NCBI GenBank assembly: GCA_030649165.1 | Contig: JAUSGG010000056.1 | Coordinates: 1 to 64,000, forward strand | DNA: 64,000 nt | Reading direction: 5' to 3' | From: Armatimonadota bacterium | GTDB taxonomy: Bacteria; Armatimonadota; UBA5829; JAUSEB01 | In this document: in pieces, positions 46,409 through 51,059 of the stretch | Layout: each line of letters starts with the position of its first letter | How positions within the stretch are numbered: position 1 is the first letter of the stretch | Position numbers and translations under genes: made by a program | Notes under the pieces: model-generated | What the model was told of the DNA's origin: nothing | The model's database searches: none | The model's input: the letters and a program-made list of their open reading frames with translations, nothing else

Positions 46409-46698
46409 TATGTGCTCTCCCGTTGCAGCAGATTGACGCTCCATTATATCAGCCCAGGGCGGGTCGCACAACGGACAGGGGAAGGGGAAGGGTTTTAACC
46501 GCCGATGAACGCAGATAAACACAGATAGGGAAGGGATTGTTGGTTGTTGGCTGTTGGTTGTTGGACGAGTCCGACTCATCCGACTCCTTCGACTCCAGAC
46601 GGGAAGGTTAAGGTTTATGAGGTGAGGGTTATGAGTGGGTACGCGATGCTGGGGCGGTCGGATGGCCGCCCCAGCCTGAACGCAGGTATTCAGCTTAC
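46409..46698. other. Repeat-filled gap between gatC and the selenoprotein gene
   Basis: Contains gttggttgttggctgttgg low-complexity (46536-46562), a gtccgactcatccgactccttcgactc minisatellite (46563-46595) and tatgaggtgagggttatg sequence. The gatC promoter probably lies at about 46420-46500, but no strong box is seen. No gene. Confidence 0.55.
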
Positions 46699-47274
46699 TC
46701 AGACGTCTCCCGCTTTTGCCCAGCGGGTTCCGGGATAGCGCTCGGCCACCTGGTCCCAGTACTCGCCGAGGTACTTGCCGTCGCCGGTAGCCCGGTACTT
46801 GGCCACGCCGACCATATAGAGGGCTTCGGGCGCGGCAAGCGAGTCGGGAAGCTCGCTCACGATATGCTCGTAACGCGCGACTGCCTCTTCGTAGCGTTTA
46901 TTGTCAAATGCCTCCTGAGCCAGTCCTATGTAGAGATCGGCCAGAAAATCGTCAGGGAAAGCATAACCGACCTGCCGCCTGTGTTCGCGGCCTTCGGCGT
47001 CGAGGAAGAAGATCGCGGGGGTCCACCGCTGGAGGAACCTGTCCGTAAACTCCGGATGCTCGACCACGTTGATTTGCACGGGAAGGAAGTTTTCGTTGAT
47101 CAGTCTCGCCACTCGCTCATCGGGGTACGTCACGGCACCCATTTTCTTGCAGCCGCCTCAGCCGGGGTTGAAGAAGTCCAAAAGGACCAGCTTCCCCGTC
47201 TCCTTCGCCTTAACGAGGGCCTCATCGAGCGAGCGCGTCCATAGCCCTTGCGCGGGCATGGTCTCAATAGCCAT
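46699..47274 (-). CDS. Thioredoxin-like selenoprotein with U-x-x-C motif (in-frame TGA)
   Basis: The frame starts at the ATG at 47274 (AGGAG upstream) and reads 38 codons, MAIETMPAQGLWTRSLDEAL up to LLDFFNPG. It then meets TGA at 47160-47158 and continues GGCKKMGAVTYPDERV to a normal stop at 46699. Thioredoxin-fold relatives have Cys at that place (C-x-x-C), so TGA most likely encodes selenocysteine: residue 39 is U, with Cys42 as partner. The rest is a thioredoxin fold (about 15-125, cis-Pro region RWTPAIFF) and a helical TPR-like tail (about 130-190). Readthrough is supported by continuous homology-like sequence on both sides and by a SECIS-like hairpin. Total 191 residues. Divergent from the 47452 lipoprotein gene. 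No sel genes are in this window. Confidence 0.85.
47123..47160 (-). promoter_or_regulatory. UGA codon and SECIS-like stem-loop in the selenoprotein mRNA
   Basis: After the UGA (47160-47158) come 17 bases. A 6-bp stem, GGGUGC (47140-47135) with GUACCC (47128-47123), then closes a 6-base loop, CGUGAC. The loop begins 23 nt after the UGA and has G as its second base. Both agree with the known bacterial SECIS rules: loop 16-37 nt after the UGA and a G among its first two bases. The pairing includes one G-U. Confidence 0.65.
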
Positions 47275-47451
47275 CTGTTCTCTCTCCTATGACAGTCTCG
47301 TGCATGGAAAGGTATTGTTCATCGTGTAGTTACCCGCCGGAACCGGTCATCAATCCGTGGATGATTGCGGGCAAAGGGTTCGGGGAAGGAGTTATTCGAC
47401 GGACGCCGAACATTGACTGGTATGCCCGTCGGGCTACGAGAGAGGAGACAC

Positions 47452-49241: not shown

Positions 49242-51059
49242 ATGAAAAACACGCACATTTTTTCGAAGGTTCTCCTGGTTCTACTCACACTCGCGTTTAC
49301 CGCGTTTCTGGCTTTGGCCGTGAGCCGCGCGCCTGCGTCCGCGGGCATGGGGTTCATGAAACGTGGTGACGACGAGCAGTCGGACAGGGCGAAAAATCGC
49401 GATGACCGACAAGCCCGGGAGGACCGCGACCGCCAGGACCGGGGTCGCCAAGACCGCGATCGGCAGGAGCGCGATCGGCAATCGCAGGCAGAGCGCGAGC
49501 GTCAGGGCGACCGAGACCGCCAGGCGCGTGAAGATCGCGATCGTGAGGATCGCGGCAGGCAGGTCCGCGCTGACCGGGAACGCCAGGACCGAGAAGTCCG
49601 CGACCGTGAGAATGGGGAGCGGCAAGCTCGGTCAGATCGAGAGCGTCAGGAACGAGACAGGCAGGCCCAGGCGGAGCGCGAGCGGCAGGCGGACCGAGAC
49701 CGCCAGGCGCGTGAAGGTCGCGATCGTGAGGATCGCGGCAGGCAGGCCCGCGCTGACCGGGAACGCCAGGACCGAGAAGTCCGCGACCGTGAGAATGGCG
49801 AGCGGCAGGCTCGGGCAGATCGAGAGCGTCAGGAACGAGACAGACAGGCCAAGGTGGAACGCGAGCGTCAGGCCGATCGGGATCGCGCGGCCCAACGGGA
49901 AAAGGACAGGGCAAGCTGGCAGGCTTCGACTGTCAAGCCCCGCCGAGGCGATTCGGACTCCGGCGCCTCGAGCGCGCGCCGGGACGGCAAGTCCGGCGGC
50001 AGCGGGGACTCGCGAAGCAACCGACCTCAGCGCTCGGGTTACGAGCGGCCGAAGGCCGATGATTCCAGGACCGACGTCCGCGTAGAGGACAGGCGGGAAA
50101 GGGGCGACTCAGGCCGTAGCGGCGTGGGTGGTATCTTCGGCAAGAGCAAGCGAGGAGAGTCCGACCGAGACGAGTCTTCCAGGGTGGAGAACCGGCCTTC
50201 CGGCTCCGGCTCGACCCGTACGGGTGAGGTGTACAGGTCCACCCCGTCGAGCAGCAACAGGCCGAAGCGCACGGATCAGGTTGCTCGGCCTTCGATTTCC
50301 ACGTCCGGTCGCTCTTGGAGCGGACAGAGGACGGACCGAGTCTTTACGAGAGTGTATGAAACTCGGCGGGATTGGCGCGTTCGTTATCACAGCTACGATT
50401 ACCGTCACCGCCCGAGCTTCCACGGCGGGTTCTACTACTATGGTTCGTCGCGCTACGATCCATACTATTATGGGTACTACTGCTTCAGCTACGTGCCGCG
50501 GTACACGTACCCGTCTCTCTATTTCTACTACGGAACGTTCCCATACATGTACCGCGACAGGATCGTGTTCATCAGCTTCCCGTTCAGGCGATACGTATAC
50601 GTTCCGCTGTATGTGTATGGCGATGACTTCTACAGGCCATACTATCAGCCGTATCCGGGATACTATCTCTCCACGAGCAACCGCAGAGAGATGAGGAATA
50701 CGCTCGACGACATTCAGGAAGCCTGGGAGCGAGCGGACTACGACCTGATCATGCGCCACGTGCGGTACAGCGAACGGGTCCACGTGTACTTCAAGGACCA
50801 GTACGAGTACTCGGTTGACTTCGATGATTACCGGGACATGACTCGCGATGCGATGGAAACGATCGACACCATCGGTTTCGAGTTCTACAAGGTCAGCATG
50901 AGGTACCGGGACGAGGTGGTGGCCTATGGGCGTCACAAGTACTACGACGACGATGACAAGTACTCTGTCGTCAACGTGACGTATACGCTGGAGCGCCGCG
51001 GCGGCGAATGGTATATCACGGAGGTGGGCTCATCTCCGAGGAGTACAAGCAGGCTGTAA
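49242..51059 (+). CDS. Secreted Arg/Asp/Glu/Gln-rich repeat protein with Tyr-rich and NTF2-like C-terminal regions
   Basis: 605 residues. Signal peptide (about 1-35). Residues about 40-225 are nearly all R, D, E, Q with A and G, including two copies of a 61-residue unit whose DNA repeat is 183 bp (from 49518 and from 49701). It should form a highly charged coiled-coil or single alpha-helix. Residues about 226-370 are basic, Ser/Gly-rich and probably disordered. Residues about 375-480 are Tyr-rich (YYYGSSRYDPYYYGYY). The last 110 or so (LDDIQEAWERADYDLIMRHV ... RRGGEWYITEV) look like an NTF2/SnoaL-type domain. No family recognised for the whole. The ATG at 49242 has GGGGGAATGGGCT upstream. Confidence 0.85.
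   Translation: MKNTHIFSKVLLVLLTLAFTAFLALAVSRAPASAGMGFMKRGDDEQSDRAKNRDDRQAREDRDRQDRGRQDRDRQERDRQSQAERERQGDRDRQAREDRDREDRGRQVRADRERQDREVRDRENGERQARSDRERQERDRQAQAERERQADRDRQAREGRDREDRGRQARADRERQDREVRDRENGERQARADRERQERDRQAKVERERQADRDRAAQREKDRASWQASTVKPRRGDSDSGASSARRDGKSGGSGDSRSNRPQRSGYERPKADDSRTDVRVEDRRERGDSGRSGVGGIFGKSKRGESDRDESSRVENRPSGSGSTRTGEVYRSTPSSSNRPKRTDQVARPSISTSGRSWSGQRTDRVFTRVYETRRDWRVRYHSYDYRHRPSFHGGFYYYGSSRYDPYYYGYYCFSYVPRYTYPSLYFYYGTFPYMYRDRIVFISFPFRRYVYVPLYVYGDDFYRPYYQPYPGYYLSTSNRREMRNTLDDIQEAWERADYDLIMRHVRYSERVHVYFKDQYEYSVDFDDYRDMTRDAMETIDTIGFEFYKVSMRYRDEVVAYGRHKYYDDDDKYSVVNVTYTLERRGGEWYITEVGSSPRSTSRL
49518..49883 (+). repeat. Two tandem 183-bp units inside the R/D/E/Q-rich gene
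   Basis: The 183-bp (61-codon) unit starting at cgccaggcgcgtgaag (49518) repeats from 49701, with few changes. Shorter gaccgccaggac-type repeats flank it. The length is an exact multiple of three, so copy number can change without loss of frame. Confidence 0.85.

Follow-up and report, generated by a model that had tools for sequence, protein, structure and literature searches.

The gene examined here lies on the reverse strand of a 64,000-nucleotide stretch of DNA from an Armatimonadota bacterium (hereafter the window), and it is a genuine bacterial gene, shortened in standard annotation. The mechanical list of open reading frames reports it as a 147-residue frame that begins just 3′ of a redox motif, as the original prediction had pointed out, and lacks the first strand along with the active site. 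Read upstream of that entry, the frame stays open to an ATG preceded by a good ribosome-binding site (AGGAG, 9 nt 5′ of the start), and the sole stop inside it is a TGA at codon 39 (Table 1), both as described beforehand. The 191-residue product begins with MAIETMPAQGLWTRSLDEALVKAKETGKLVLLDFFNPG-U-GGCKKM..., which places the TGA at the first position of the predicted redox motif, NPG-U-GGC. The gene also terminates at TGA (positions 46701-46699, codon 192), and TGA thus doubles as selenocysteine (Sec) codon and stop.

Table 1. Features of the selenoprotein gene and its 3′ flank in the window
Feature	Position	Strand	Basis
Selenoprotein CDS, 191 residues with Sec39	46699..47274	-	Full-length homology
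Ribosome-binding site AGGAG	47284..47288	-	9-nt spacer to ATG
Start codon ATG	47274-47272	-	Read from the sequence
In-frame TGA, codon 39, first position of U-G-G-C	47158..47160	-	TGA at the same column in eight other genomes, Cys in relatives
Cys42, resolving residue of UxxC	47149..47151	-	Kept in all relatives but G014
Candidate bSECIS hairpin GGGUGC-CGUGAC-GUACCC	47123..47140	-	Fits the bSECIS model of PMC13188914
Thioredoxin-like domain, residues 12-104, DsbD-gamma/Thioredoxin_7 type	46963..47241	-	Pfam, structural model, Foldseek
W84-T85-P86, cis-proline loop position	47017..47025	-	Invariant alignment columns
C-terminal helical TPR-like tail, residues 107-189	46708..46956	-	Pfam, profile, helices of the model
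Short 147-residue ORF, the standard gene-caller output	46699..47142	-	Mechanical ORF list
GC-rich hairpin past the stop, in the gap before gatC	46648..46675	-	Computed RNA fold

Next after the gene in the window come gatC-gatA-gatB, which share its strand. A perfect GC-rich hairpin (GCTGGGGCGG...CCGCCCCAGC) with no T run stands between the selenoprotein gene and gatC and is a possible transcription end. Neighborhoods are not conserved between genera, and sharing was found only within close pairs of genomes, such as a DUF3866 gene beside the copies in G050 and G063 and common genes near those in G009 and G010. Because no neighbors are shared across genera, we rejected the neighborhood as a clue to function. 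Elsewhere in the window (49242-51059, forward strand) is a gene for a 605-residue protein whose long low-complexity stretch, rich in Asp, Arg, and Gln, is a repeat at the protein level; its middle is Tyr-rich and its C-terminal domain SnoaL-like.

Relatives of the full-length product were sought in 121 related genomes and then in the whole phylum (291 genomes). Ten full-length relatives score above 170 bits, and all other matches fall below 100 bits. In eight of these ten, a single TGA interrupts the frame, at the column where the window gene has its own (genomes G009, G010, G043, G050, G063, G121, G151, and G154), within the motifs NPGUGGC, NPGUYGC (two genomes), NPNUGGC, SPHUGGC, SPQUGGC, APRUGGC, and APMUGGC. 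Since these eight proteins, all from the same phylum, are only 35-43% identical to the window protein, the shared TGA is not explained by DNA similarity. Across the nine genes the stop at this column is always TGA, never TAA or TAG. Homology on both sides of the TGA, combined with TGA at the identical column of eight divergent relatives and no other stop, rules out chance read-through.

The original prediction also looked to homologs with Cys at the TGA column, and these exist in the phylum of the window and in a second one. The relative in G069 has the motif SPKCVSC, with Cys at the Sec column, in a genome that yielded neither SelB nor tRNA-Sec. In the tenth relative (G014, locus L024:1489-2058), both active-site residues are replaced, by Leu and Ser (NPTLVGS), in a protein that is still full-length, and the genome keeps tRNA-Sec and two SelB genes. 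Retention of this dead-site form hints that the tail or the scaffold has a role apart from redox chemistry. The second phylum, that of an uncultured Ignavibacterium locus, contains a full-length relative in 16 of 396 genomes, every one of which (16/16) has C-x-G-C. Verrucomicrobial matches (L010-L012) were left out because they align with the tetratricopeptide repeat (TPR) part only. In the tree, all 11 sequences from the window's phylum cluster together (support 100/100), with G069 and G014 nested among them, and the Cys form of G069 is placed inside the Sec clade (95/86). Given the Cys of the second phylum, the simplest reading of these sequences would be one Cys/Sec exchange between the two phyla, of which the unrooted tree does not fix the direction, followed by two later losses of Sec.

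The window comes from a genome of 5.48 Mb (99.3% complete), and all four of selA, selB, selC, and selD, the genes on which the prediction depended, are present in it. The tRNA-Sec, with anticodon UCA, is on contig C114; profile searches of the genome identified SelB on C48 (382.6 bits against a cut-off of 242), SelA on C81 (579.9 bits), and SelD on C27 (395.3 bits). The selD gene (L049:1381-2440, on contig C27 of the host genome, G000) has an in-frame UGA of its own in GAGUACK, at the known Sec position of SelD, and judged by its sequence it appears to be a second gene of this genome that needs Sec readout. The Sec motif of SelD is listed as UxxK in a published inventory (PMC13188914 Table 1). 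With a complete selABCD set and a Sec-type SelD, the organism has what it needs to decode UGA as Sec. More widely, SelB occurs in seven of the nine genomes with the TGA form, compared with 140 of the 291 genomes across the phylum. One of the remaining two, G009, has tRNA-Sec and no SelB at E ≤ 1e-70; in the other, G154, a genome that is 73% complete, neither SelB nor tRNA-Sec was found. This co-occurrence is supportive of the Sec reading and is not decisive.

Two other accounts of codon 39 have to be set against Sec. Were the UGA a true stop, the gene would be the 147-residue frame or a decayed locus; a standard open reading frame does exist there, and the Met that follows the motif is common to several members. 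This account is very improbable, given that TGA alone occupies the one column in nine genes whose upstream 38 codons are conserved, that Leu replaces the Met in G063, G050, and G121, and that the short frame would be a protein with neither active site nor first strand. It is just as implausible that the UGA is read as some other amino acid, by a reassigned code or near-cognate read-through, or that TGA is a sequencing error: nothing in favor of either emerged, the same gene terminates at TGA, the genome has the full selABCD set along with a Sec-containing SelD, and recurrence of TGA in eight other genomes excludes the misread TGC or TGT that the original prediction had named as a possible refutation. 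The selenoprotein reading of codon 39 is strongly supported and the internal TGA almost certainly encodes Sec; we infer that Sec is actually inserted in this organism.

A bacterial Sec insertion element (bSECIS) had been proposed immediately downstream of the TGA. The published model describes a loop of 3-9 nt with G in one of its first two positions, located 16-37 nt from the UGA (PMC13188914), and our criterion also took a stem of at least 4 bp. The geometry of the proposed element stands, in that a 6-bp stem (GGGUGC/GUACCC) encloses a loop, CGUGAC, that starts 23 nt after the UGA and has G in second place. In isolation the hairpin is within chance under synonymous shuffling (P 0.075-0.10), and 13 of 171 codon positions of the same gene score as well. 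By itself the window hairpin is only suggestive. Of the nine Sec genes, six have a strict-model hairpin. Synonymous shuffles would give 1.2 (P about 2e-4, with members treated as independent), and other codons within the same genes 0.8; the relaxed setting gives six against 1.8 expected (P 0.002). Two further hairpin scores gave combined P values of about 0.03 (by our own combination) and 0.25, the latter from a looser score that reached no significance over the family; the family-wide enrichment depends on the measure used. The stem position is common to the window, G154, and G151 (loops CGUGAC, CGGGAC, and CGUGAC, respectively), and the stem is about 7 nt nearer the UGA in G063, G050, and G121. 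No strict-model hairpin was found in G009, G010, or G043, the last of which retains a bulged form. Pair covariation in six sequences was not above that in shuffles. Because both the single-sequence score and covariation are within the range of shuffles, we rejected the hairpin as stand-alone proof of Sec.

The predicted architecture, a thioredoxin fold joined to a TPR-like tail, is backed by Pfam and by a confident structural model. The window protein matches PF13098 (Thioredoxin_2, 45.1 bits) and PF13899 (Thioredoxin_7, 44.2 bits) over a cut-off of 27. Against TPR_6 it reaches 20.8 bits (cut-off 26.3), and other family members match TPR models with E values down to 1.2e-8. In the PDB, the family profile finds both consensus TPR proteins and the C-terminal domains of DsbD. 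An AlphaFold2 model built on a 12-sequence alignment (pLDDT 93.5, pTM 0.88, with low confidence in the first nine residues) shows a thioredoxin fold followed by helices at residues 107-124, 128-141, 148-163, 167-179, and 184-189. The best PDB neighbors found by Foldseek are DsbD C-terminal (gamma) domains (E 4e-7). The (C/U)xxC motif lies at the start of helix 1, and the invariant WTP occupies the position of the cis-proline loop of thioredoxin folds. Invariant residues across the family alignment (W12, W84-T85-P86, G103, Y160, and L169) fall on the active-site side as well as in the tail, which indicates that both are constrained. By inspection we saw neither a signal peptide nor a hydrophobic N-terminal segment, and so we read the protein as cytosolic.

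Selenoproteins of thioredoxin fold with UxxC have long been known (PMC1088965, PMC13188914), and several described families share parts of this design. The "thiol:disulfide interchange protein" selenoproteins of PF13098 (PMC13188914 Table 1; representative WP_011366075.1) have the same Thioredoxin_2 domain and Sec first in UxxC, although the inventory, whose entries give just a domain and a motif, lists no family with a TPR tail. The closest fold and the best family matches for the thioredoxin part are provided by DsbD gamma and TsoB (NF045694, a rhodanese/DsbD fusion-like selenoprotein). However, the window protein scores 41.7 and 40.2 bits against the DsbD and TsoB models, far below their cut-offs of 330 and 805, and those models span 574 and 572 residues, whereas the window protein has 191 and is soluble and TPR-tailed. 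The VPGUxxT (NF041382/NF041383) and Trx7/PDZ (NF041199) families are likewise thioredoxin-like, Sec-containing, and multidomain, but they differ in motif (VPGUxxT and CxxU) and in their C-terminal parts; scores against them are 32.5 bits for VPGUxxT type 2, 21.8 for type 1, and 17.9 for Trx7/PDZ (cut-offs 275, 350, and 300). CnoX/YbbN proteins resemble the window protein in having an N-terminal thioredoxin fold and a C-terminal TPR part and in being cytosolic, but they have no Sec, their motif is SxxC or WCGPC, and their TPR part is longer. We rejected membership in that family because PF14561 (TPR_20) has no match in the 12 members and the structural match to YbbN has an rmsd of 11.4 over 189 columns. 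A search of the same genomes for CnoX-type TPR_20 proteins gave general TPR matches only, and the best of these in the host genome is a different, longer protein.

The original prediction had suspected that a UxxC thioredoxin fold with a TPR tail was little described, and what we found agrees. No NCBIfam model matches the window protein above its cut-off, and none matches it over its full length. Judged from its entries, a 2026 inventory of 119 selenoprotein families (PMC13188914) includes no thioredoxin-TPR family. The open-license literature yielded no selenoprotein of this family for Armatimonadetes/Armatimonadota, Fimbriimonas, DUF255, or TPR. Thus, although UxxC Sec and the combination of thioredoxin fold with TPR (CnoX/YbbN) are each known already, we could not find a description of their arrangement in one selenoprotein family. 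The family extends the selenoproteins by a new domain arrangement, and does so in a phylum whose selenoproteins are almost absent from the literature that we searched; it also illustrates how standard annotation strips the active site from such selenoproteins.

The open frame, the column-specific TGA, the Sec/Cys exchange, the Sec machinery, and the fold are results of computation; for function, we infer, with a probability of about 0.75, a Sec-dependent thiol-disulfide reductase of the cytosol that docks its clients by the tail. SelB would deliver Sec-tRNA(UCA) to UGA codon 39, probably aided by the hairpin 3′ of the UGA. The UGGC motif of the DsbD-gamma/Thioredoxin_7-like fold would reduce or exchange a client disulfide or an oxidized thiol, with Sec39 attacking and Cys42 resolving the mixed selenenyl-sulfide, after which the cell's thiol system would presumably re-reduce the Sec39/Cys42 pair. 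The short C-terminal TPR-like tail may dock the client or a chaperone. Redox direction, electron donor, and client docking are proposed parts of the scheme.

The tail could instead hold unfolded or oxidized clients in the manner of CnoX/YbbN, shielding their thiols by a mixed (seleno)sulfide before handover to DnaK or GroEL. The two-part architecture is the same, YbbN (3qou) is matched across 189 columns at rank nine of the Foldseek list, Caulobacter CnoX shows oxidoreductase activity (PMC6282202), and G014 retains the protein without its active site. We nevertheless regard such a role, that of a seleno-chaperedoxin, as unlikely: identity to YbbN is 11% at the high rmsd given above, the tail has about 80 residues compared with the much longer TPR domain of YbbN, TPR_20 is absent from all 12 members, and the thioredoxin part is DsbD-gamma/Thioredoxin_7-like rather than WCGPC. 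Were it true, Sec chemistry and a client-holding tail would be joined in one cytosolic protein, and selenium would have a part in the quality control of protein folding in this phylum. Less likely still is a peroxidase-type role in oxidative-stress defense, in which the selenol would directly reduce peroxides or sulfenic acids. Such chemistry is often served by Sec, and the G014 gene adjoins genes for a Fur-family regulator and rubrerythrin; that sole neighborhood, however, belongs to the member with the dead active site, and UxxC on a DsbD-gamma-like fold differs from the TxxU of peroxiredoxins (Prx) and the UxxT of glutathione peroxidases (GPx). Because nature offers Sec, Cys, and dead-site members of one fold, a small set of proteins would suffice to test what Sec gains over Cys and, separately, what the TPR tail does.

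Two side observations follow. A second related group in this phylum has TDW-U-GWC with an in-frame TGA at three loci (L064:1411-2286 in G030, L036 in G068, and L079 in G209). Its members are Thioredoxin_7-like, with a longer TPR part and an N-terminal signal-like segment, Cys versions (TDWCGWC) are common, and no NCBIfam model matches over its cut-off; by its sequences, this group is a probable further selenoprotein family. Finally, prepilin N-termini of the type ILFPxFAxARExARRAxC, which point to Armatimonadota as the probable phylum, occur in both the window and G069.
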